Of a stretch of DNA of 64,000 bases, positions 23,956 through 53,302 are shown piece after piece. The DNA comes from Pyxidicoccus trucidator. GTDB lineage: Bacteria; Myxococcota; Myxococcia; Myxococcales; Myxococcaceae. Position 1 is the first letter of the stretch. Each line of letters begins with the position of its first letter. The stretch spans positions 1-64,000 of the forward strand of contig NZ_JAAIXZ010000029.1 of assembly GCF_010894435.1 (NCBI RefSeq), written 5' to 3'. The notes beneath the pieces were generated by a model. The model searched no databases, was not told the origin of the DNA, and was given only the letters and a program-made list of their open reading frames with translations. The position numbers and the translations under genes are program-made.

Positions 23956-24498
23956 TCAGGAGTGGTGCGCCACCGCGGCCTTCACCCAGCGCAGGATGCT
24001 CGCCTCGTCAATGTCCGCGGCGCTGCGCACCTTGAGGTGGCGCATGGTCTTCCCGGTGCCCTCGAGCTTTCCTTCCGGGTCGTCGAGCTTCTCCGGGGGC
24101 GCCATGATGCTGAGGGCGGCGTAGGTCGTCGAGGTGTAGAGCGCACAGAAGCCGCCCTTCAGCTCGAAATAGGGCATGCCCCACTTCATGGACTCGCGAG
24201 CGCCGGGGGCGGCCTTCTTCACCAGGGCACGCAGGGCCTCGAGGTGCTCGCGCCGCTCCGGGGGCTGCTGCGCGAAGAAGGCGTCCGCCGGGGCGCCGAG
24301 GTCCTCGCGGCGCAGGTACGGGCGGACAGGGGCCTTCTTCGCGGCCGCGCCCTTCGCCGGCGCCTTCTTCGCAGCCGCGCTCTTCGCCGGGGTCTTCTTC
24401 GCAGCCGCGCTCTTCGCGGGCGTCTTCCTGGCGGTGCTCGTCTTCACAGGGGTCTTCTTCGTGGGTGTCTTCTTCGCCGTCACCTTGCGTGCTGCCAT
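23956..24498 (-). CDS. DUF1801 protein with histone-H1-like Lys/Ala tail
   Basis: 180 residues. Residues 1-65 are made of KTPAK and AAKK repeats like eukaryotic histone H1 or mycobacterial HupB tails, suggesting nucleic-acid binding. The C-terminal ~115 residues form a DUF1801/YdhG-type domain (ESMKWGMPYFELKGGFCALY), a small fold sometimes linked to iron-binding frataxin-like proteins. The ATG at 24498 starts MAARKVTAKK. Function unknown. The tail-domain fusion is the notable part; the neighbouring AlkD-like gene has a similar basic tail at its other end. Confidence 0.85.
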   Translation of the reverse strand: MAARKVTAKKTPTKKTPVKTSTARKTPAKSAAAKKTPAKSAAAKKAPAKGAAAKKAPVRPYLRREDLGAPADAFFAQQPPERREHLEALRALVKKAAPGARESMKWGMPYFELKGGFCALYTSTTYAALSIMAPPEKLDDPEGKLEGTGKTMRHLKVRSAADIDEASILRWVKAAVAHHS

Positions 24499-25986: not shown

Positions 25987-26376
25987 ATGCGCAAGTTCGT
26001 GACTCTCTTCTCACTGGGCAGCTGTCTGCTGATGACTGGCGCTGGAGCGCAGACACCACCCGCTCAGGCTCCCTCGACTCAGACGCCCGCAAATGCGTGC
26101 TACCTGTGGAAGGGGCGTGGAGGTCCTCCCTCGGAGGGCTACATGGCTACCCATGCGAGCTGCCGTCCATGGAATAGCAATTACGGGTGGAGCTTCATCA
26201 AGAAGAACAATGGGGTGGACTACTATCGCGGAACATTCAAGGACGCCGCGGCCACTCCCTCCACCTGGGCGGTCTACGCCGACTTCGGCTCAGCAGTTGT
26301 CACCTCGAAGGCGGACTACGATTCCTTTGTCGCCAATACCAGGCTGTCCGGCTCCTGCGGCGAGTGCCTGCACTGA
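25987..26376 (+). CDS. Small exported protein
   Basis: 129 residues: signal peptide (MRKFVTLFSLGSCLLMTGAG) with a cleavage site before AQTPPAQ, a Gln/Pro/Thr linker, and a compact mature domain with four cysteines, aromatic residues and a final SGSCGECLH. No family is recognised. It is probably secreted or periplasmic and disulfide-bonded. The palindromic sites about 130 bases upstream may control it. Confidence 0.75.
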   Translation: MRKFVTLFSLGSCLLMTGAGAQTPPAQAPSTQTPANACYLWKGRGGPPSEGYMATHASCRPWNSNYGWSFIKKNNGVDYYRGTFKDAAATPSTWAVYADFGSAVVTSKADYDSFVANTRLSGSCGECLH

Positions 26377-26509
26377 CAGCGGGGCTCAGCTGGCCGTGCG
26401 CGAGCGGAGACCGCGGTGCAGGCCGTGCACGCCGGCTCGTTCGGGTGATGCGGCTCCACTCAGGGTTTCCACCGCCGAGCGCCGTGGAAGCGCTCGGCCC
26501 CGCCGCCCG

Positions 26510-26845
26510 TCAGGGGCAGTAAGTGCAGTAGAAGAAGTCGGAGTGCGAGGCGTACGGCCCGTCCCCGCCCGGGCCCCAGCAATCCGTGGTGCAGTCGTCG
26601 TTCGTGTAGCAGGAGAGCACCCACCCCTCCTCGGTGTAGGGGAGCGAGTTGTGCCAGGAGCTGTACCGGGGGCGGTAGAGCTGCACACAGGCCTGGGCGG
26701 ACACCTCGCCAGCGGTGCCCTCCGTGGGCGCTCCTTCCGAGACGGTCGGCGGGGCGGACTGCTCCGCGGGCGGCTGGGGCTCCGCGCCACACGCCATCAG
26801 GAAGCCCGCAGCCAGCACGACGAAGCCACTCAGGGTGCTCTTCAT
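26510..26845 (-). CDS. Small Cys-rich lipoprotein
   Basis: 111 residues with a lipobox ending LMACG, then a Pro/Glu/Ala linker and a C-terminal Tyr/Trp/Cys-rich domain (CYTNDDCTTDCWGPGGDGPY, then FFYCTYCP). Seven cysteines suggest a small disulfide-bonded surface domain. The ATG at 26845 starts the signal peptide, and AGGAGTGTCACC precedes it. It belongs to the numerous short lipoproteins typical of Myxococcales; function unknown. Confidence 0.75.
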   Translation of the reverse strand: MKSTLSGFVVLAAGFLMACGAEPQPPAEQSAPPTVSEGAPTEGTAGEVSAQACVQLYRPRYSSWHNSLPYTEEGWVLSCYTNDDCTTDCWGPGGDGPYASHSDFFYCTYCP

Positions 26846-26992
26846 GGTGACACTCCTTTCAAAAGGGGGGCCTGAATGAGAGCACATTCCCTCGCGGAGC
26901 TCGGTGTGGGGAAGCGCCCCCTCCTCGACCCGCGGCGCCACACCCGCCCGGGACATCCATGACCCTGTGAATTTCCCGTAGCCATGTTGCAC

Positions 26993-27571
26993 CTACGTGA
27001 GCAGGAGCCCCATGAGCAGGTCATCCACGAGCGCGCCGTCGTCGGCCCGGAGGAACGCCCTGCGCGTTCCCTCGTGCTCGAAGCCCAGCGAGCGATAGAG
27101 GGCGATGGCGCGGGGATTGTCGGCGCGGACGTAGAGTTCCACTCGAAGCACTCGCTGGCCATCCGCATCCCGGTGCGACCGCACCCACTGGAGCAGGTGC
27201 TGCATCAACAGGCGGCCCACGCCCAGTCCCTGGGCCGCCGGGTGGACGCCGATGCCCAGCACACCCACGTGGCGCAGCATCCGGTAGCCGATGCGCAGCA
27301 CGGACGCCTCACCCAATACGCCGCCGTCCTCCGCTTCCACGAGGAGGGGGAACGCCGTGCCGTCCGTCTTGTGGAGCCCCGCGCTCTCGCGTCCCGCGGC
27401 GAACGTGGCCGCGTCCGGCGGCAGCTCGTCCTCGTGCTTCACGATGCCCTGCCGGGCCCGGACGATGGCTCGATCCAGCGCGTATAGCGCCGCCGCGTCC
27501 TCGCTCGTGGCCTGGCGGATGACACAGGAGCGTCCGTCGCGGAGTGGAACCCGGCTGGGCTGGTAGTGCAT
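26993..27571 (-). CDS. GNAT-family N-acetyltransferase
   Basis: 192 residues with a single GNAT domain. The acetyl-CoA-binding motif A is GIGVHPAAQGLGVGRLLMQH (Q/RxxGxG/A as QGLGVG), followed by VELYVRADNPRAIALYRSLG and FEHEGTRRAF, the usual motif B region. It should acetylate an amine on an unknown small molecule or protein. The internal ATG at 27571 is preferred over the first one at 27604. It is transcribed alone. Confidence 0.85.
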   Translation of the reverse strand: MHYQPSRVPLRDGRSCVIRQATSEDAAALYALDRAIVRARQGIVKHEDELPPDAATFAAGRESAGLHKTDGTAFPLLVEAEDGGVLGEASVLRIGYRMLRHVGVLGIGVHPAAQGLGVGRLLMQHLLQWVRSHRDADGQRVLRVELYVRADNPRAIALYRSLGFEHEGTRRAFLRADDGALVDDLLMGLLLT

Positions 27572-27629
27572 GGGCGTGAGGCTATCGCCTCCCCTATCGT
27601 GCACGGCAAGAATCGCCGTCCGTCCACGT

Positions 27630-28050
27630 CCCCTTGTCTCCCTCCTTCGCGTTCCAACCTCTTCGCGCTGGCCTGCTGCGTCCTTGCCTTCACCGTGGAC
27701 TATAGCGATGACCCGCCAGAGCCCCCCGCCGGGCGTGGCGTCCTGCGCATCGGAAACACGCGCGCGGACAACGTGGTGCGCGTCGACGCGGAGACGGGCG
27801 ATTTCCTCGAGGACTTCGTCGCGGACGATGGCCCGGCAGGGCTCGTCGCACTCGTCTTCGGTCCCAGCGGCGACCTGTACGTGTCGAGCGGGGACAGCCC
27901 ACCTTCTCCGGTCTCCCCAGCCAGGTGCTGCGCTTCGACATCGCCACGGGACAGTCGGAGGGCTTCATCGACCAGCCCGCGCTCTCTGCCGCGGGGCTGA
28001 GCTACATCACCCTACTCGGACTGGCCTTCGGGCCGGGCTGTGGAAGCGCA
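27630..28050 (+). pseudogene. Frameshifted NHL/propeller-type gene remnant
   Basis: The first frame (about 27640-27897) reads GRGVLRIGNTRADNVVRVDA, then ETGDFLEDFV and FGPSGDLYVSSGDSP. The second frame then continues TFSGLPSQVLRFDIATGQSE and GFIDQPALSAAGLSYITLLG to about 28045. This is a typical NHL/SMP-30-like propeller repeat pattern broken by one frameshift near 27897 and lacking its 3' half. It was probably a surface-layer or exported protein gene. Confidence 0.6.
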
Positions 28051-28649
28051 CAAGGTTCCACGGCGTCTTCGCTCCAGGCGCGAAATTGCGGCCATTTCTG
28101 CTCCGCCCGAGGTTCGCGAGCCTATCCAGACCGAGCCGAGCGAGCCGCCGGGACCCGTCGGGCCCCTCCCCGAGACGGACGGTGGCACGTCGCCGGAGTC
28201 CGCGACGAAGCAGCTCGCCGTGGCTGGCGGTGGGGACGCTCCCTCCTTGGGAAAGGGAGCGCTTCACCGCGAACGACCGCTCCGGTTCACTGATGCCTTG
28301 TACGAGTCACGAGGCGCGTTCCGGGGGCGCGGCCCCATCCCGAAGTCATGGGTCATGAATGTAGGGCGCGATGTTGGCCAGTCAATGATATGCGATTTTT
28401 CGCATGCCATGAACTTGCATGCCTTGACTCAAGAAGAGGCTGACAACCTCTTCTCAAGGACTCTCTTGGGACGTTTGCATTTAACCGGAGATCTGGTCTA
28501 TATCGTTTGTGCTGCCCTTGGGCGGCGCGACGGGATGCGACTGATGAGGTGGCTTCGAAGGAGGCCTGGATGTTTCGCATCGTGCGACTTCGTGGCCTGT
28601 TCGTGGTGCTGCAGCCGCGGCCGTCATCAATCCCCATGAGGAGACGCCA
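28051..28649. other. Non-coding or decayed stretch with AT-richer core
   Basis: The left half has a Pro/Glu-rich plus-strand frame that may be decayed coding sequence. About 28350-28530 is conspicuously less GC-rich than its surroundings and contains an 8-bp inverted repeat (agaagagg/cctcttct, near 28434-28456). Short frames here lack starts and motifs. It looks like an imported or degraded segment. Confidence 0.45.
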
Positions 28650-29009
28650 ATGACGCTGGTGCGAGCACTGCGCTGTGCTGTCGGAACAGCCCTGTTGTTT
28701 GGAGCCGGATGTGGTGTGCCTGTCGAGGACAACGCGAGTCCCACCGCGCCGACACCTTCCGAGGCGACACCGGAGGACGGCGACATCAAGCGCGCGGCAG
28801 CCGTCTATATGCTGTGCTGGCCAGCGCTCGGTGTCTACAACGGCCCGTCAACGAGCTCCTACCTTCACACAACGCTTCATAGAGGTAGCGGCAACAACTT
28901 CGAAGTGCTGGGCAACCCGATTCTCTCCGAAGGAGAGTACTGGGCGCCCGGTCGTACAACGATAGGGCGGACCGAGGGATACGTGCGCTGGAATGGGCTC
29001 TGCCATTAG
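28650..29009 (+). CDS. Small lipoprotein
   Basis: 119 residues with a lipoprotein signal (MTLVRALRCAVGTALLFGAG then C at residue 21). A Thr/Pro/Glu-rich linker is followed by a domain with Cys, Tyr and Trp residues ending EGYVRWNGLCH. The mature part suggests a small beta-rich fold such as an SH3-like module, but I cannot assign it. It may be an exported partner of the C1q-like protein downstream, although 471 bases separate them. Confidence 0.7.
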   Translation: MTLVRALRCAVGTALLFGAGCGVPVEDNASPTAPTPSEATPEDGDIKRAAAVYMLCWPALGVYNGPSTSSYLHTTLHRGSGNNFEVLGNPILSEGEYWAPGRTTIGRTEGYVRWNGLCH

Positions 29010-29480
29010 CTGACAACAAACGTTGGGAGCAGGCGCGCCTTTCCGCAGCGCCTGCCTTCCAGGACTATCGCCCGCTGCCCCCGTGACACCGCCCTGCGGC
29101 TCGCGCACAGTGCGTCGCTCGAGGACACACGGGAGGAAGCACGGTGGAGACCACAGTCTTCCTGGCGGAGGCGGGTGTGGCCCTGGACGCGGAACGGGCC
29201 TGGTGGCGAGAGTGCAGCCCACGCATGCCACCAGCGACACAACCAGTGCTCGCCACTCTGCGCGAGGCCGAGCGACTGCCGGAACTACGCGGCTTCCAAC
29301 ACGCACACCTACGGACTCTGAGCGCCCACCGGCTGTTAGGGCTCACGAGGAGCGGGCGCGAGAGCACGTGAATGACAATGAATTCCGCCGTCGGTTCGCG
29401 CCCATTTTTGAAAGACAGAAGTGCGCAACCCAGCATTCCACTTCCAAACCAGAAGCAGCACACCCACCAGGAAGGCAATT
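29010..29480. other. Gene-poor spacer upstream of the C1q-like gene
   Basis: A short plus-strand frame at 29144-29371 (starting METTVFLAEAGVALDAERAW) could be a remnant but lacks a ribosome-binding site and has no recognisable motif. The last ~100 bases are AT-richer and probably hold the promoter of the next gene. Nothing else is supportable. Confidence 0.4.
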
Positions 29481-30092
29481 ATGCAGCGACCATGGAAGAC
29501 ATTGGTATTTGGAATCGCATCATCGCTCATTGCAAGCGCCGCGCAGGCAGAGGGCAGTGATGCTGCCGTCGATGGCGCTCGCATGAGTGGGCAGGTCATC
29601 CACGACTACAGGACTGCGGACCCCGTACTTCCCGCCTACCTCGCGACCTACAACCCATATCTCTGCCCGGAATCTGGAATCGTTGCGTTCAGCGTATCCG
29701 GCGGAAATCATGTCTCAGAGGGTGGCGCCACGCTCTTGGGGTATCCCCATGTCATCACGAATGAAGGCGCAAATTGGCCGACTGGCGGAGGCACATTCGT
29801 CGCGCCATGTGCCGGGCTGTACTTCTTTGCCGTGTCCTTCGTGAAGGACGCAACCAATTACGGCGCAACGAATAGAGACGTGTATGTCCAGATTCTGCAG
29901 AACGGAGTCAGCAAGGGACTTGCCTGGAGCGGCTACACCGCCGACCAAGACCGTGCCGCCGGCTCATACAGCGTTGCCCTCGTGCTGGAGCAAGGGGATT
30001 ACATCCAGACCTTCACGTTCAATGACACTGGCGTGAAGCGGCATCTTTATAGCTACAACTTCACAGGCCATTTGGTGAGGCAGCGATACTGA
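29481..30092 (+). CDS. Exported C1q-like (TNF-fold) domain protein
   Basis: 203 residues. The signal peptide (MQRPWKTLVFGIASSLIASA then AQA) is followed by a single domain with the C1q pattern: GGGTFVAPCAGLYFFAVSFV, a central VYVQILQNGVSKGL strand pair, SYSVALVLEQGDYIQTFTF and a final YSYNFTGHLV strand. C1q/TNF-like folds usually trimerise and bind proteins or glycans outside the cell. A good ribosome-binding site (GGAAGG) precedes the ATG. The gene is markedly less GC-rich than its neighbours, suggesting recent acquisition. Bacterial C1q proteins are uncommon. Confidence 0.75.
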   Translation: MQRPWKTLVFGIASSLIASAAQAEGSDAAVDGARMSGQVIHDYRTADPVLPAYLATYNPYLCPESGIVAFSVSGGNHVSEGGATLLGYPHVITNEGANWPTGGGTFVAPCAGLYFFAVSFVKDATNYGATNRDVYVQILQNGVSKGLAWSGYTADQDRAAGSYSVALVLEQGDYIQTFTFNDTGVKRHLYSYNFTGHLVRQRY

Positions 30093-30711
30093 CATGAACT
30101 GGTAGCCATGGCTCGGTGTGGGCTGCTCAGCAGGCTGGGGGTGCCAAGCGTCAACTCGCATCCTGGAGCGCCCACACCTCCAGCAGCGAAGCCCACATGC
30201 CCAGAGCCCGTCGCCGTCGTGCCACTCCGTCCCCCCCGAAGCACGCGTCCCCGCGTTTCCGGTGGCCCCGCGTTGGGCCCGCTGCCGTTGGAAGAAGTCC
30301 TCCGGGATGCGCTCCGCAGAGCGCTGAAGGCATCTCTCGCCGGCCTGGCGGCGGACCTGAGCCGCCTTGCAGCGCGTCCGGCCGGGAAGGAGCTCCCTCA
30401 AGCGGGGGCGGAGCCTGGGCTGGAGGAGCAGAGCCCGACCCTGGCTGCGACGGTGGAGTCCGCACGCCGCGATGGGATTGGGCGGGACTGCTGCGCCGAC
30501 CCTTTTCACCCCCTTTGCACCAGCCCCCCTCAAACAGGGCCCCCATTCCGCCTGGGGCCCTCAGGTTTGGGGTGTTGGATGCGCTGGCTGTTCATCGAAG
30601 AACCACTGCAGCCTGGGCTCCTCTCCCGAGGACCTGAGCCGCTGGGAGCGCCGGTTCGTGACGATGCGCGCCGACGAGCGCTGTACACAGCGCCACCGCC
30701 TCGAAGCCAAG
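30093..30711. other. Intergenic region holding a dispersed-repeat copy
   Basis: No convincing gene. A plus-strand frame around 30230-30500 has leucine-rich coding-like text (PLEEVLRDALRRALKASLAG) and may be a remnant of unknown origin. The only identifiable element is the short repeat copy at 30497-30555. Confidence 0.4.
30497..30555. repeat. Partial copy (R3) of a dispersed intergenic repeat
   Basis: 59 bases running from CGACCCTTTTCACC to CATTCCGCCTGG, almost identical to the right-hand thirds of the repeats at 44478-44640 and 47303-47466. It carries the conserved CCCTTTGCACC and CAGGGCCC blocks. The left two thirds of the longer copies are absent here. Confidence 0.8.
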
Positions 30712-31605
30712 ATGGCCCTCTCCACTTTCGAGCTCGTGAGGTCCTGGTTGACGTCGCTGCGCCTTCCCCGAGTCCTCGCCATGCTTCCCATGGCCTTCCT
30801 GCTCGCGGCTTGTGGTGATGAGCCCGAGCCCGTGCGTACCGTCCTCGCGGCCACGGCAGGTGAGTCCTGGAGCTCGCCCCGGTTCTCTCCAGATGGCTCC
30901 CGCATCCTCTTCTCGAGCTTTGCCCCGATCGGCGATACCGGCGTGAACAACGTTCAGCGTGTGAACGTGGACGGCACGGACCTCCAGGAAGCGCACGTTC
31001 CCCATGCCGCCATCTGGAGCGCGGACGGAACCCGCTTCATCTATCCCCGGTGGGGCAGTCTTCACAGCCGCCCGGTGGATGGACTCCCAGAGGTGCTCGA
31101 GGCCGAGGACATCGGCTTCCCTTCCGACGGCCGCATGGACGTGTCGCCCGACAATCAGTGGATTGTCTTTGGCATGGCGGGCACGTCCTCCAGCGGCGAG
31201 CGCCGCGGGCTGAACCTCTTCGACTGGACGACCCGGGAAGTGCGGACGCTCAGGGAGGACGGCTTCTCGCCGGTCCTCTCGCCGGACGGCCAGCGTGTGG
31301 CGTATCTGGTCCGCGTGGCGCCAGGCCCCTTCGAAGTCCGAGTGCTCACGATCAGCACAGGGGAAGACCTGCCGGTGATGAGAGCCATCCACAATCATCA
31401 GCCCATGGCCTGGATGCCCGATGGACGACTCGTGGTGGTGACGAAGGATGGGTTCACCTTCGTCGACCCCTCCGGCGTGACGCCGCAGCGAAACCTCGTG
31501 CTCGAAGGCGGCGCGCCCAGGGAACTGGATGTCTCCCAGGACGGCAAGAAGCTGGTCTACGGCCTGACAGGCCAGGACGACTTCTACCTGTTGACGGGCT
31601 TCTGA
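30712..31605 (+). CDS. TolB/WD40-like propeller lipoprotein
   Basis: 297 residues. The lipobox LLAACG falls near residue 33 from the ATG at 30712, or residue 10 from an alternative ATG at 30781 that lacks basic residues. The mature protein contains repeated PD40-type motifs (FSPDGSRILF, WSADGTRFIY, LSPDGQRVAY, SQDGKKLVYG), indicating a beta-propeller of about six blades. It is probably an outer-membrane or periplasmic lipoprotein that binds partners; enzymatic residues are not apparent. Confidence 0.8.
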   Translation: MALSTFELVRSWLTSLRLPRVLAMLPMAFLLAACGDEPEPVRTVLAATAGESWSSPRFSPDGSRILFSSFAPIGDTGVNNVQRVNVDGTDLQEAHVPHAAIWSADGTRFIYPRWGSLHSRPVDGLPEVLEAEDIGFPSDGRMDVSPDNQWIVFGMAGTSSSGERRGLNLFDWTTREVRTLREDGFSPVLSPDGQRVAYLVRVAPGPFEVRVLTISTGEDLPVMRAIHNHQPMAWMPDGRLVVVTKDGFTFVDPSGVTPQRNLVLEGGAPRELDVSQDGKKLVYGLTGQDDFYLLTGF

Positions 31606-32002
31606 ACGGCCGGGCGTACGCCGAGCAGGCGCTGCGCGACTGATGCGGGCCTGGGGCTCTCGTCCGCCTGGGGCTGCTCCTGGAGGGCCAGGGCAGCGCG
31701 CAAATGGGCTGTCTCGGGTTTCTTCGCCCGCAGCAGGCGGAGTGCCGCCTGGTCCAGGGCTCGGTGGGCCGGCCTCCACCTCCGTGGCTGGCCGACCGCT
31801 TCACCTCCTCCATGCGTAGCACGCGAGCGACTACCGCCGGCTCATCAGCAGGGCCACGCGGAGCTATCTATCGAGATTCGCTGGGCTGCTCGAGAGGGCG
31901 ACGGAAAAATAATCGCCGGTTGTCGATCCGCGCGGACTTCGTTCGACGCATCGGTGAAGGGGCCGGCAGGTGCCGGTCCTCGCTTCCCTGAAGGAGACCC
32001 AC
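31606..32002. other. Gene-free stretch
   Basis: About 400 bases with no supported gene. A minus-strand frame near 31620-31830 has leucine/alanine-rich text but no start or motif. An AT-richer patch at 31895-31925 may contain the promoter for the alpha/beta hydrolase gene. Confidence 0.4.
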
Positions 32003-32881
32003 ATGCGGTTGACGATGATCCACGCTGCCTTGATGGCTGTGAGCCTGCTCTTCACCTCCACCGCGGCCGACGCGCAACCGAAGGGCGCTCGGGTCAAGGT
32101 GAACGGGATGCAGGTCTATTACGAGGTTTCGGGCAAAGGCGAGCCGCTGGTCGTGCTGCACGGCGCCTACATGAACATCCCGACGATGGGCGCCATCATC
32201 CCGAAGCTCGCGAAGACCCATAAGGTCTACGCGCTCGAGTTCCAGGGACACGGCCGCACCACCGACATCGACCGGCCCATCACCTATCAAAACCTCGCGG
32301 ACGACGTGGCCGCCTTCATGGACGCGGTCGGTCTGAAGAAAGCCGACGTGTTCGGCTACTCGATGGGGTCCGCCGCCGGGTTGCAGCTCGCCATCCGCCA
32401 TCCGGAAAAGGTGAACAAGCTCGTCGCGGCTTCTGTCGCGTACGACATCCAGGGCTGGCAGCCCGAGTTCAGGGAGTTCATCCCGAAGATGACCGTGGAG
32501 ATGTTCCTCGAGATGCCCTTCGCGAAGGAGTACCCGAAGCTCGCGGCCAATCCGAAGGGCTTCCCTGAGCTGGTCAAGAAGCTGATCCAGCTCGAGAAGG
32601 AGCCGATGGCGTGGGAGAAGGACGTGAAGGCGCTCAAGACGCCCGTCCTCATCATCACCGGCGACGCCGACGTCGCGACGCTCGAGCACTCCGTCGCCAT
32701 GTTCCGGCTCCTCGGCGGCGGCGGCCCGGGCGAGATGGGCAAGCCGCTGTCCCCCTCGCGGCTGGCGGTCATGCCGGCGACTGCACACACCGCCGTCATC
32801 AGCCAGTCGGAGCTGCTTCACGCCTTCATCGAGCCGTTCCTGAAAGGCCAGACGCCGAAGGGCTTCTTCGAGACCCCGTAA
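32003..32881 (+). CDS. Exported alpha/beta hydrolase
   Basis: 292 residues with a signal peptide (MRLTMIHAALMAVSLLFTST then AADA). An alpha/beta-hydrolase fold follows: oxyanion strand VVLHGAYMNIPTMG, nucleophile GYSMGS, acid in ITGDADV and catalytic histidine in ATAHTAVI. It is likely a periplasmic or secreted esterase or lipase. The ATG at 32003 follows GAAGGAGACCCAC, a strong ribosome-binding site. Base composition is less extreme than in typical neighbours. Confidence 0.87.
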   Translation: MRLTMIHAALMAVSLLFTSTAADAQPKGARVKVNGMQVYYEVSGKGEPLVVLHGAYMNIPTMGAIIPKLAKTHKVYALEFQGHGRTTDIDRPITYQNLADDVAAFMDAVGLKKADVFGYSMGSAAGLQLAIRHPEKVNKLVAASVAYDIQGWQPEFREFIPKMTVEMFLEMPFAKEYPKLAANPKGFPELVKKLIQLEKEPMAWEKDVKALKTPVLIITGDADVATLEHSVAMFRLLGGGGPGEMGKPLSPSRLAVMPATAHTAVISQSELLHAFIEPFLKGQTPKGFFETP

Positions 32882-33009
32882 TCGGCGGGGCCGACCCCCT
32901 CAGCCTCCGGGTGCGCCGAGCCGGAGGCTGGCTGGAGGGTCTTGGCGTACGTGAAGGGAGCGCGAGGGAGGGCGGGCGTCCGGCATGGCGCCCGCGCGGC
33001 CCCAGAGCG

Positions 33010-33390
33010 TCACAGCGCGCTGCAGGCCCAGACGCCAAGGGGCGTGCAGTAGCAATTGGGATTGGGGTGGCCTGTCAGGCAGCAGCTCCGCGTCCCGCCA
33101 ACGGGCGAACACGGGGTCCCCGCGAGCTTGCTGCAGCGATTGTTCAGCCCACAGATGGGGATGGGCGTGAAGCAGATATTGTAGAAGCCATCGCACTCGA
33201 CGGAGTCCGCCTGCACCGAGCAGGTGTTCCCCTCACAAGACACTGTCGAGCCATTCGGACAGGTCTGTGTGCACGTGACGAGGGCGCTCGACTCCTGCCC
33301 CAGCTCCGGCGCCTCGACAGGTTCCACTCCACCACAGGCCACCAGCACCGGGACGACGAGTACCGTCAGCACACCCAGGAAGCTCTTCAT
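33010..33390 (-). CDS. Cys-rich small lipoprotein
   Basis: 126 residues. A lipoprotein signal (MKSFLGVLTVLVVPVLVACG) is followed by Glu/Pro-rich linker residues and 14 or so cysteines in the C-terminal ~80 residues (CTQTCPNGSTVSCEGNTC, CGLNNRC, CCLTGHPNPNCYC). The spacing suggests a knotted, protease-resistant surface domain. The family is not recognised. The start at 33390 is chosen by its signal peptide. Confidence 0.75.
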   Translation of the reverse strand: MKSFLGVLTVLVVPVLVACGGVEPVEAPELGQESSALVTCTQTCPNGSTVSCEGNTCSVQADSVECDGFYNICFTPIPICGLNNRCSKLAGTPCSPVGGTRSCCLTGHPNPNCYCTPLGVWACSAL

Positions 33391-33506
33391 GGCATGTCTC
33401 TCCTTGAGGGGTCGAGCGGCATCGAAGCACACCCCATGCCAATCACGCCACTGGGTTTCACATGCATCATCGTAAGGATTCGCACCTCACTCCCTGACGC
33501 CAGTCT

Positions 33507-47841: not shown

Positions 47842-48585
47842 GTGAGCGGCCTCGTCGAAGCGCATCTGGAGATTGACGGGACGGACATCCATCCGTCCAC
47901 CGTTGACCCGCGCCTTGCCGCCGACCTCATCCACAGCTTTTTCCAGCTCCTGAGCCGGGCTGCATCTGCCGCAGGTGTCCCCCTTCATCTCAAGGGCATC
48001 ACCATCGAGGACAAGTGCTTCCACGCTGGATTTGGCACCTCTGAGCCCCATCTCACCAAGAAGGCCCTGGAAACAGTCAGCGCATGGGTCTCGGGTGAAG
48101 AAGAGATTGACTCCAAGCCCGATGAAGAGGTGGTCCGCCACTTCAACAAACTGGTGCGTCAGTTCGGGAAGGAAGCGACCGCAACAATTGCGGTGGGCAG
48201 GTGGGAGCAGCAACTCAAGCTGGTGGACCCACAACTTCCTCTGCCGCCCATCAGCACGACCACGCTTCGAGTTCACCTGACCGACATCGGAGTTGAACCG
48301 GCGCGAGCACGATTCACGTCAGGGTCCGAGAAGAACCCATTCAGCCTTCCAGTCTCAGTGGCGCAAGCAGAGGAACTCCGCCATCACCTCAACGAAGATC
48401 TCGACCTCGTCTTTACGTTCCGCCGTAACAGGTACGGCGACATTGACGACGGCACCGTCCTTCACTTCTATCCGATGGAGTCGAACGACGATGGCGAAGA
48501 GTGGATCCGGTGGCTGACTGAGAATGGGAAACACTGGGACGAGGTGAAGGACCCGCTGGAGGAACTGGGGCGGCGTGATGATTGA
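47842..48585 (+). CDS. Unrecognised protein, first gene of a PIN-domain operon
   Basis: About 247 residues from a GTG at 47842; an ATG at 47749 is also in frame, but the intervening residues look non-coding. It is soluble and acidic with no signal peptide. Notable segments are LIHSFFQLLSRAASAAG, LKGITIEDKCFHAGF and a C-terminal DDGTVLHFYPMESNDDGEEW. I cannot place it in a family. Its last 8-11 bases overlap the PIN gene start, so the two proteins are probably made together and may act together. The gene is clearly less GC-rich than the flanking chromosome, indicating acquisition. Confidence 0.75.
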   Translation: MSGLVEAHLEIDGTDIHPSTVDPRLAADLIHSFFQLLSRAASAAGVPLHLKGITIEDKCFHAGFGTSEPHLTKKALETVSAWVSGEEEIDSKPDEEVVRHFNKLVRQFGKEATATIAVGRWEQQLKLVDPQLPLPPISTTTLRVHLTDIGVEPARARFTSGSEKNPFSLPVSVAQAEELRHHLNEDLDLVFTFRRNRYGDIDDGTVLHFYPMESNDDGEEWIRWLTENGKHWDEVKDPLEELGRRDD

Positions 48586-49132
48586 CCTGAGCGGACTGCC
48601 GCATCGCATCATGTTCGACTCGTCCGTGCTAACACGCACCCGAGCGAACTCGACGGCCCCTCATTCTGAGCTTTGTCAGGAGCTCTTCAGGGAACTGCTT
48701 CGCTCAGGGCGGCACATTCTGATTCCCGCAGTCGCGCTAGCTGAGTACATGCGCAGGCCGCCACACGACCAGCCCAAGCGTCACTCGCGGGTAGAGGTGG
48801 TCGCATTTGACCAGGATGCGGCCGTCGATCTCGCGACCAAGCTGCCGAACTGGCCTGTCATCAAGATGCACACGGGCACGTCCCGCACCGTCGCCAAGTA
48901 CGATGAAATGATCCTGGCGTCCGCAATTCGTCACAACGCGGAACTCCTTCTGTGCATGGATACGGATCTGATTGAAGCTGCGAAGCTCTGTAAAGTGCCC
49001 GTGCTGGATCCAACGACCCTACCTCACCAAGAGTCGATGATAGACGTGCTAATGAATCCAGCGGCGTCGGCAGCAAGTCCTCCAACAGCGGTCAAGGCAC
49101 CCGCCGCCAAGAAGACGACCAGCGGCACGTGA
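48578..49132 (+). CDS. PIN-domain putative ribonuclease
   Basis: 184 residues. The fold matches PIN nucleases with acidic residues in the expected places: D14 in IMFDSSVLTR, E56 in AVALAEYMRR, D109 in AKYDEMILASAI and D128/D130 in LLLCMDTDLI, which would bind Mg2+ or Mn2+. PIN proteins usually cut RNA and often serve as toxins. Here the partner is an unusually large upstream protein rather than a short antitoxin. The start is ATG 48578, or GTG one codon earlier, overlapping the previous stop. An Ala/Pro/Lys tail of ~25 residues follows the domain. A hairpin terminator follows at 49154-49185. Confidence 0.82.
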   Translation: MIDLSGLPHRIMFDSSVLTRTRANSTAPHSELCQELFRELLRSGRHILIPAVALAEYMRRPPHDQPKRHSRVEVVAFDQDAAVDLATKLPNWPVIKMHTGTSRTVAKYDEMILASAIRHNAELLLCMDTDLIEAAKLCKVPVLDPTTLPHQESMIDVLMNPAASAASPPTAVKAPAAKKTTSGT

Positions 49133-50664: not shown

Positions 50665-51321
50665 TCACCGTGCGACCGCCCGCGCCATGGAGTTTGGATC
50701 TAAGAATGGGCCGTTATGGGGCGATTCGTCGGAATGATACAAATCAAAGTATCCCTGTCCCAGCCTGGAAGGCACCCCAGACTTTTGGACTTCCGCTCGC
50801 TCCCTTGCGACTTCGACCAATAGATTTCCCACCACATAGACTGCATCACCAAAGTCCGGCCCCACTCCCGCTTCACGATAGGCATGCTGGAAACCAGCAA
50901 CATGCAGCCACTCGTGAAACCAGTGCCCTGCTAAGGACAACCAGTCGTTGGCTTCATACCAGCGATTGTAATAAACAGGATTTGTCTTAATGGTTGGGTC
51001 TGGATGATCCGCCCCCCCAAGGATTCCGTCTTCGTTGGGCACTAACTTCACCTGAAGGTCTATTTCGTTATCTGGCACGCCACTTGGAATGGCCCGCCAC
51101 TCAAGCCCGCCAGTAATGACTCTTACAAGATCGTCGTTCGTGGCTTCGATCTGGTATTTGTCGTTTGGGAAGTATATATTTCGCGTGTAAGGCACCGAGA
51201 TGAGGCGCCCTAGAAAAGTAGGATCGTTTACCATGTCCTCCAGGTAGCGAGTCGTTGAAAGGCCAAAAGATTGCTGCCCTTGGGTTGCATTCTCGAACGA
51301 CTGAAGGGTGACTTTGATCAT
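50665..51321 (-). CDS. Putative zinc metallopeptidase (HEWLHxxGFxH)
   Basis: 218 residues from the ATG at 51321 (MIKVTLQSFENATQGQQSFG). The centre contains GHWFHEWLHVAGFQHAYREA, an HExxHxxGxxH pattern that could bind zinc, followed by FGDAVYVVGNLLVEVARER. No signal peptide is seen. Base composition is far less GC-rich than the chromosome average, so it is probably foreign. It is flanked by phage-type remnants and may have been a phage or toxin-like cargo gene. The start is uncertain because no strong ribosome-binding site precedes it. Confidence 0.65.
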   Translation of the reverse strand: MIKVTLQSFENATQGQQSFGLSTTRYLEDMVNDPTFLGRLISVPYTRNIYFPNDKYQIEATNDDLVRVITGGLEWRAIPSGVPDNEIDLQVKLVPNEDGILGGADHPDPTIKTNPVYYNRWYEANDWLSLAGHWFHEWLHVAGFQHAYREAGVGPDFGDAVYVVGNLLVEVARERAEVQKSGVPSRLGQGYFDLYHSDESPHNGPFLDPNSMARAVAR

Positions 51322-51671
51322 ACCCAAGATGGTCCAATATCGATTCAAGAGCAACAAGGGAGCCCAGGCCGAATTTGTCGACGAATGCACATTGGATTGG
51401 CACGCTTGATTTCGCCATTCAAAGAGGCGCTTCGCTGGCGTGCGTGCTGACTGCTCTGGACACCCTCTGTTGTCGCGCAAGCTCGGAAAGGGTCCGCAGT
51501 GCATTCGTCGCGTGGATTCAGACAGTCAGAGCAAAGTCCTTAAGGACCGGCGCGCCCGGCATCCTTGGAGGCCACCACGTTCGCAGCATGCTGCATCTGC
51601 CGGGCGCTGCGCTCGCCCATCAACAAGTGGGCATCGCTCGCGGCGCAGGCGAGTTGCGGGCGAGCCTCCAG
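51322..51671. other. Spacer between remnants
   Basis: The minus strand at about 51540-51671 can be read as ARPQLACAASDAHLLMGERS and SARQMQHAANVVASKDAGRA before a stop. It directly follows the interrupted 49-codon frame, so another small phage-type gene may have existed here. Nothing else is recognisable. Confidence 0.35.
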
Positions 51672-51807
51672 TTACCATGTCTCCAGCGCCTTCAGTCGTA
51701 GACTCACCTCACGCAAGTGAGACTCGTGCTCCCTCACCCGGCGCAGGTCCGCCTTGATGTCCTTCACGTCGGAGGCGACGGTGGCCATCCGCTCGACGAG
51801 CAGGGGC

Positions 51808-53302
51808 ACCTAGCACTACTGCGTTAGGGGTATGCGGGGGAGCGAGCGACTGAGGGCTGCGCGCCCCTGGCTACCATTGCGTTGTGCGCCCGGCGACCTA
51901 CTCATGAAGTAGGTATGGACTCCTTCATGAATGCCGCTGCCGTGCAGCGGCTTGAGAGGTACTTCCAGCGAATCGGCGACGTGCTCGGCGAGGAGAGCCG
52001 ACGTGGCTCGTTCGCCCTCTATGCCATGGGCCTGCTGGGAGACGGAGAGCGCAAGAGCGTCGAGCCCATCGCCGCCCGCGCATGCCCGGACCCCGGACGG
52101 GTGGATGCCATGCACCAACGGCTGTTGCACTTCGCTGTGGACTCGAAGTGGAGCGACCGGGACGTGCGGCGGGCGGCGGCGCAGTACGCGCTGGAGGCGA
52201 TGACCCGGCGAGAGCCGGTGGACGCCTGGATTGTGGATGACACGGGCTTCCTCAAGCAGGGCAAGCACTCGGTGGGCGTGCAGCGGCAGTACACCGGCTC
52301 GGCGGGCAAAATCACGAACTGCCAGATTGGCGTCAGCCTCAGTGTCGCCACTCGCACCGAGCACCTGCCCCTCGACTTCGAACTGTACCTGCCCGACAGA
52401 TGGGCCAACGACGAGGCTCGCCGCCGCGAGGCCCGAATCCCTCCCGACGTCCCCTTCAAGACCAAACCCCAACTGGCACTGCAAATGATTGACCGGGCCG
52501 TGCAGGACGGTGTCCCTCCGGGCGTTGTCTTGGGGGACACCGCCTATGGCACGTCCAGTAAGTTCCGCGCGCACCTGCGCTCGCTGGGCTTGCATTACGC
52601 GGTCGCGGTGGCCCCCCAGACCGCCGTCTGCCTGTTGGATGAAAAGGGGCGCCCCCGAGGTGACGCGCGGAGCGTTTCGGACCTGGCCCTGCGCCTTCAT
52701 GAGCGGGAAGGCTTCCGACGGTGCTCCTGGCGCAAGGGCACCCAGGAGGACTTGTCGGCATGTTTTGCCCTGCGTCGAGTCATCGCCGCGGGCGTGCCCC
52801 AGCGCGAGCAGGAGCCGCTGTGGCTGCTCATCGAGTGGCGGGACGATGAGCCCGAGCCCGCCAATTACTTCCTCGTTTCCCTGCCAGAGCTCAGAACGAA
52901 GAAGCAGCTCATCCGCCTGGTGATGCAGCGCTGGAGAACCGAGCGCGTCTACGAGGACCTCAAGGGCGAACTGGGGCTGGACCATTACGAAGGCCGCCGC
53001 TTCCCTGGCTGGCATCACTACGTCTCGGTGGCCCTGTGCTGCTACGCGTTCCTCGTGGCGGAACGCGCGCGGCGTTTTCCCCCCTCGGCACGAGGGACGG
53101 CTGAAGCCCACACGCAGCCGCTCCAGGCCTGAGCGCCACTTCCACGACAGCTTCATCACCGCACGGCTCGCCATGGCGCGCGTGATTGCCACCTGGCTGC
53201 CGCGCTGCCCCACCTGCCACCGCTCCAACTACCGGCGCGCCTCACGTAGCCTGCCCGGTCTCCCCGAGCACCCCTCGGGCCCCTGACGCAGTAGTGCTAA
53301 CC
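51808..53302. mobile_element. IS701-type insertion sequence
   Basis: Terminal inverted repeats are TAGCACTACTGCGTTAGGGG at 51811-51830 and its complement at 53280-53299 (19 of 20 identical). The element is 1489 bases, and the trinucleotide ACC is duplicated at both flanks (51808-51810 and 53300-53302). It carries one transposase gene. Clean ends and target duplication suggest a fairly recent insertion. Confidence 0.88.
51915..53132 (+). CDS. IS701-family transposase
   Basis: 405 residues. DDE-type motifs are visible: WIVDDTGFLKQGKHSVGVQR (first Asp), LGDTAYGTSSKFR (second Asp) and VYEDLKGELGLDHYEGR (Glu), in the order used by IS701 transposases, which cut and paste DNA. After about 53085, where CCCCCC occurs, family-like sequence (RHFHDSFITARLAMARVIAT, then WLPRCPTCHRSN) continues in another frame to 53286. 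The 3' end is therefore frameshifted, by mutation or by programmed slippage. Activity is uncertain. Confidence 0.88.
   Translation: MDSFMNAAAVQRLERYFQRIGDVLGEESRRGSFALYAMGLLGDGERKSVEPIAARACPDPGRVDAMHQRLLHFAVDSKWSDRDVRRAAAQYALEAMTRREPVDAWIVDDTGFLKQGKHSVGVQRQYTGSAGKITNCQIGVSLSVATRTEHLPLDFELYLPDRWANDEARRREARIPPDVPFKTKPQLALQMIDRAVQDGVPPGVVLGDTAYGTSSKFRAHLRSLGLHYAVAVAPQTAVCLLDEKGRPRGDARSVSDLALRLHEREGFRRCSWRKGTQEDLSACFALRRVIAAGVPQREQEPLWLLIEWRDDEPEPANYFLVSLPELRTKKQLIRLVMQRWRTERVYEDLKGELGLDHYEGRRFPGWHHYVSVALCCYAFLVAERARRFPPSARGTAEAHTQPLQA

Follow-up and report, generated by a model that had tools for sequence, protein, structure and literature searches.

The occurrence of a C1q-like gene in a 64,000-nucleotide stretch of Pyxidicoccus trucidator DNA (the whole of which is called the window here) raised the question of what such a protein might do in a myxobacterium, and of where its domain might have come from. 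Judged from its sequence, the frame at 29481-30092 (+ strand; 203 aa, opening with ATG at 29481 and ending, stop included, with TGA at 30092) is a real, intact, exported-looking C1q gene. A ribosome-binding-like tract, AGGAAGG, was read by eye at 29469-29475 on the same strand, 5 bases 5' of the ATG, and a consensus scan for promoter-like and terminator-like sites of the gene returned none. The protein begins with MQRPWKTLVFGIASSLIASAAQA, in which a Sec-type signal peptide of residues 1-23 (29481-29549, + strand), with an AQA site and without a lipobox, is proposed by eye; the structural model places a helix at residues 7-18. A linker of 38 residues (24-61; 29550-29663, + strand, delimited by eye) follows, bearing a Y+T/S-x-DP-like motif that was seen again by eye in most family members, and residues 24-61 showed no Gly-X-Y collagen repeat by eye, nor did the Pfam scan return a collagen model. 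According to Pfam PF00386 and the predicted fold, the C1q domain occupies residues 69-199 (29685-30077, + strand), with Cys62 (codon 29664-29666, + strand) ahead of it and Cys110 (codon 29808-29810, + strand) within it, both cysteines being invariant in 9/9 copies of the family. The first-pass annotation of this DNA had cited FVAPCAGLYFFAVSF and a terminal FTGHLV, both of which were found in the translation, and its description of a signal peptide followed by a single domain agrees with the signal-peptide-like start, read by eye, and the one complete C1q domain found by Pfam.

The match to PF00386 reached 39.6 bits (cut-off 23.7, E 7.4e-10) over profile positions 1-127 of 127, and at the level of sequence comparison the C1q assignment is far beyond chance. 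Only C1q exceeded its Pfam cut-off in the protein, within which no fibre domain was found; a BPL_N match (0.015, 14.6 bits) was ignored, its cut-off of 24.2 not being reached, and an NCBIfam search with the protein gave no match. Sequence searches of solved structures returned cerebellin-1, C1q subunits and C1q-like proteins, both for the window protein and for the family profile. The best AlphaFold2 model, computed with eight relatives, had a mean pLDDT of 79.3 (62.3-67.9 for the remaining four models), with ten-residue blocks of the C1q part at 80-96 except for residues 91-100 at 69, and takes the form of a ten-strand jelly roll in which one strand is just two residues long. C1q domains were the top solved matches of this model in Foldseek (E 1.9e-9), and the best fold matches were the C1q domains of Caprin-2, C1QL and cerebellin (Z 14.9-17.2, 19-28% identity), with Caprin-2 aligned by VIA-align over 126 residues at Z 17.2 and rmsd 1.4. 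The C1q/TNF fold claimed earlier was therefore upheld by the profile search that had been proposed for it, with PF00386 above cut-off over the whole profile, by the C1q domains that head the fold matches, and by the predicted structure, in which the ten strands of the superfamily jelly roll are present when the one of two residues is counted.

Unlike animal C1q proteins, the window protein has neither a collagen stalk nor any further module of the animal proteins, and its family differs from animal C1QL and cerebellin in the invariant C62/C110 pair and a separate long branch. Its arrangement is that of secreted globular-head C1q proteins (a signal peptide, by eye, plus one C1q domain and no collagen), as described for invertebrate proteins such as OXYL in passages of PMC6409975 and PMC10672478; the window protein, in contrast to these, is bacterial, and the class is defined by layout, not by descent. 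Phages and extracellular contractile injection systems also have C1q domains encoded by prokaryote-linked genes, for which recognition is proposed in passages of PMC3909814 and PMC12923769, whereas the window protein has a signal peptide and no fibre domain, and a Pfam scan of ten window frames from 26.5 to 36.2 kb turned up no tail family. The window protein is a new example of a C1q-domain protein, a kind already known from bacteria and phages, and no account of this myxobacterial family was met in a limited literature search on bacterial and phage C1q domains.

The family detected is small, patchy and lies within the Myxococcaceae. One C1q copy is present in the 12.67 Mb, 136-contig genome from which the window comes (three further matches all had E >1), and this was the only one of 27 genus genomes with a C1q match (0/26 in the other members). 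Matches were found in 2/100 relatives, the window genome counted in, and in 8/195 phylum genomes, which hold 9 copies in 4/90 genera of a single taxonomic family, that of the window; the sporadic occurrence in bacteria stated in the first-pass annotation is borne out by these counts (1/27 and 8/195). Named loci include Archangium lansinium MIWBW, Archangium violaceum Cb vi76 and a Myxococcaceae MAG, and of two scans of genome contigs for relatives the first found none and the second Myxococcaceae alone. Family members are 31-53% identical to the window protein over the alignment, all 9 of the 9 aligned match Pfam C1q, and a further cysteine pair is common to copies L006 and L009. In genome G152 the copy (L010:1291-2484, C2 near 4975140) continues from C1q into a Fibrinogen_C domain (2e-7, 31.5 bits, cut-off 22), and this protein joins two recognition folds of animal immunity in one bacterial chain.

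The three close Archangium copies appear to be under purifying selection, with NG86 dN/dS ratios of 0.21-0.28 among them, distant pairs having been left out as their dS was saturated; the size of the constraint is only rough, since YN00 gave 0.038 and NG86 0.284 for the pair L011-L012. In the family alignment the majority fraction was 0.72 in strands and 0.68 in loops, so that loops vary little more than strands do, and a rapidly evolving binding face is not indicated.

The base composition of the gene departs from that of its surroundings. The window C1q gene has a GC content of 57.4% and the 111 bp upstream 51.4%, with 62-75% in eight further stretches of the interval 28650-30660, and 65% or more is reached in 58 of the window's 64 one-kb bins. 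The description of this DNA as low in GC therefore holds relative to the window, but not as its lowest stretch, the one-kb bin of the gene (61.4%) lying above bins 48001-49000 (58.7%) and 51001-52000 (58.4%). GC3 of the gene is 0.67, compared with a lowest value of 0.70 and a median of 0.90 among the 33 genes of 150 aa or longer that were called in the window; these came from a simple calling script whose lowered threshold caught only the end of the C1q gene, the full frame of which was added by hand. Low GC is not a family-wide trait, because the three Archangium copies have GC3 values of 0.86-0.95. Conserved gene order directly around the C1q gene was seen only among the three Archangium loci, and the high GC3 together with this stable neighbourhood fits a long residence there. 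One further called frame of the window, at 23956-24498 (- strand, 180 aa), has KKTPAK-type repeats and looks histone H1-like by eye.

The site of the window gene is bordered by the remains of other genes. Upstream, an amidohydrolase gene remnant was identified by sequence comparison at 29123-29239 (+ strand), two parts of which match sites ~1.07 kb apart in a full-length amidohydrolase copy elsewhere in the genome, the inside being missing. In genome G002 a homologue of the frame at 28650-29009 is followed by an amidohydrolase gene in the same order, and, because G002 keeps this order, it is probably ancestral, with the window having lost most of the amidohydrolase. The frame at 28650-29009 is itself small and exported-looking (119 aa, no Pfam match). 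Farther upstream, ~300 bp present in G021 are absent from the window at the junction 27891/27892, and the gene remains at 27566-28050 are ~300 bp short relative both to G021 and to a second copy in the window's own genome.

Downstream, the stretch 30111-30392 has 71-73% matches in three genus-mates, while 29323-30110, C1q gene included, has no match among the matches listed. A dispersed repeat of ~107 bp follows at 30392-30498, with many sites in genus-mates, in three of which it sits among unrelated genes; several genus-mates have more than one copy within a few kb. An IS91-like origin of this repeat was tentatively suspected from a motif; the L168 frame has no Pfam match and the genus-mate neighbours are unrelated. 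At 31697-31813, comparison with G021 revealed the remnant of an IS110-type element with an internal deletion of ~0.87 kb, the same two ends lying that much farther apart in G021 with a transposase gene between them. A repeat scan of 26000-33500 gave no convincing repeat pair bracketing the C1q gene as a mobile unit, and a clean empty site for the gene was not found, because the flanks are too rearranged. The truncated neighbours and repeats are consistent with arrival of the gene at what looks like a decayed, variable site.

Around the other family copies, whose neighbouring genes were Pfam-scanned in part, a DDE transposase gene adjoins the G155 copy, and a Y1 transposase match near the second G127 copy fell short of its cut-off (21.5 of the 23 bits required). 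One pair of genes beside the G037 copy recurs ~8 kb away from that of G128, and the copies in G150 and G152 have kinase-like genes at distances of up to ~3 kb.

Relatives of the domain outside bacterial chromosomes bear on its origin. Searches of 72,556 plasmid records and 50,697 phage records found none at E<=0.01, nor did an alignment scan of viral contigs find any, and a PHROGs search gave a single weak family whose function is unassigned there. A looser C1q-like DNA pattern picked out at least 120 viral contigs, and the family domain profile matched frames of 92/120 of these at E<=1 and 81/120 at E<=1e-3, the 92/120 being no measure of frequency among viruses because the contigs were chosen by their C1q motif. 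The top viral frame scored 39.9 bits against the family domain profile, and a search of viral predicted structures gave 506 matches at E<=0.001, headed by a Bacillus phage tail-fibre receptor-binding protein. The family might on this evidence descend from the C1q domain of a phage receptor-binding or tail-fibre protein and have gained its signal peptide later, a tentative proposal which the many viral C1q domains, the structure matches and the profile score favour, and against which stand the empty searches of phage and plasmid records and of viral contigs, the functionally unassigned PHROGs family and, in the tree described below, a separate viral group. Two classes of candidate viral relative were set aside: L008, in which the match, by eye, starts from a single shared peptide, WSGYTADQ, in an otherwise unlike frame of a phage-like contig, was rejected for that reason, and matches in Shinella and Pelagibacter phage (E 0.1 and 4) were dropped, as the frames of both loci had no family-profile match at E<=10.

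A phylogeny, which had been suggested together with the profile search, was computed as a quick tree, with 77 viral rows beside the 9 of the family and 4 from animals, and as a careful tree of 9 family rows, the 22 best-scoring of the 77 viral rows (one identical row omitted) and 4 partial animal rows, in which the bootstrap had not settled. The family formed one group in both (support 94 in the quick tree; 94/93, not starred, in the careful tree) on a long stem (1.97 and 1.37, respectively), CBLN1 was the nearest row, weakly (65 and 88/64), and the viral rows grouped together at 89/81 in the careful tree. Constraining the family with the viral rows in the careful tree was not rejected (AU p 0.53); the phylogeny thus delivered a single, long-stemmed family group but did not decide its placement inside or outside the animals. 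A transfer of the domain from a eukaryote, probably an animal, to a myxobacterium, with later spread within the family, is in our estimate unlikely. The weak proximity of CBLN1 in both trees speaks for it, as do the animal C1q domains that are the best solved matches (20-28% identity, compared with ~13% for Bacillus BclA) and the nesting of injection-system C1q domains inside eukaryotic clades reported in passages of PMC12923769; yet the list of matches is biased because solved structures are mostly animal, the animal sampling consists of four partial rows only, the constraint with the viral rows was not rejected, and C1QL2 is matched more closely by a viral C1q frame (46.8 bits) than by family members (22.4, 29.7 and 26.9 bits). 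Of the transfer proposed in the first-pass annotation, the changed and variable locus (amidohydrolase and IS110 remnants, repeat) and the atypical GC3 give support, while the tree did not identify a source.

Our preferred reading, to which we give a probability of about one half, is that the gene encodes a Sec-exported, single-C1q-domain protein that binds polymers of a surface or matrix, and that it arrived at a decayed site by exchange among Myxococcaceae. Speaking for it are the C1q match over the full profile, the modelled jelly roll, the two invariant cysteines, the dN/dS values of the Archangium copies, the rarity of the family, the low GC3, the damaged neighbours and the G152 fusion; weighing against it are the four poorer models, the near-equal conservation of loops and strands, the absence of a clean empty site, the empty promoter and terminator scan, and the ordinary high GC3 and stable surroundings of the gene in Archangium. 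The protein would be exported by Sec with loss of its signal peptide, and the mature domain is predicted to adopt the jelly roll of ten strands, probably stabilised by a disulfide between Cys62 and Cys110, a pairing inferred from the invariant cysteines. By analogy the C1q domains would probably trimerise, as other C1q domains do; solved C1q domains are trimers according to passages of the review PMC10672478, in which most invertebrate secreted globular-head C1q proteins are also held to be probably monomers in action, a view that counts against the trimer proposal. The domain may then bind a glycan or polymer of cell surfaces or the extracellular matrix, and exchange among Myxococcaceae probably brought the gene to its decayed, repeat-rich site. 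Recognition of a surface or matrix is held most likely because of analogy with three systems: OXYL, a feather-star secreted globular-head C1q protein described in passages of PMC6409975 as a lectin that binds LacNAc and agglutinates bacteria; phage C1q proteins, proposed as host-recognition parts in passages of PMC3909814; and injection-system fibres, whose C1q domains are, in their authors' reading, acquired from eukaryotes (passages of PMC12923769). The C1q-Fibrinogen_C fusion of G152 points to recognition as well. Adhesion to prey or matrix, the role put forward when the frame was first read, would be plausible.

The fold occurs in structural proteins too. BclA, F-BclA and ExsFA belong to the spore coat of Firmicutes, and BclA has a collagen-like stalk. 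Their C1q/TNF-like jelly rolls, likewise bacterial, were among the fold matches of the model (Z 12.9-14.5), at ~13% identity to the window protein, which has no collagen repeat. In the three Archangium loci, moreover, the gene immediately downstream, in the same orientation, encodes a YkuD L,D-transpeptidase domain. Both observations would suit a structural protein of the envelope, matrix or spore coat in place of a recognition protein, a reading which we consider improbable, as a core coat component would not be expected to be as rare and patchy as this family is, and the transpeptidase neighbour was seen in the Archangium loci only.

The small single-domain protein is a convenient one with which to test the ligand of a stand-alone bacterial C1q domain, and binding to prey or kin surfaces would mean that one recognition fold is used by animals, phages and predatory bacteria; otherwise the locus nonetheless illustrates clearly how an accessory gene can sit at a decayed site in a large myxobacterial genome. 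A more speculative extension, for which we hold out little expectation, is that some Myxococcaceae carry exchangeable exported modules (C1q, C1q-fibrinogen and fibrinogen alone) for telling apart prey, kin or matrix, which, if true, would give bacteria a counterpart of the C1q and ficolin modules on which animal innate immunity draws. Compatible with this extension are the G152 fusion and the Fibrinogen_C matches at E<=0.001 in 43/189 phylum genomes, the window genome included, many of the matches being short. The match in the window's own genome lies at G000:C6:259515-260033 and scores 37.9 bits.
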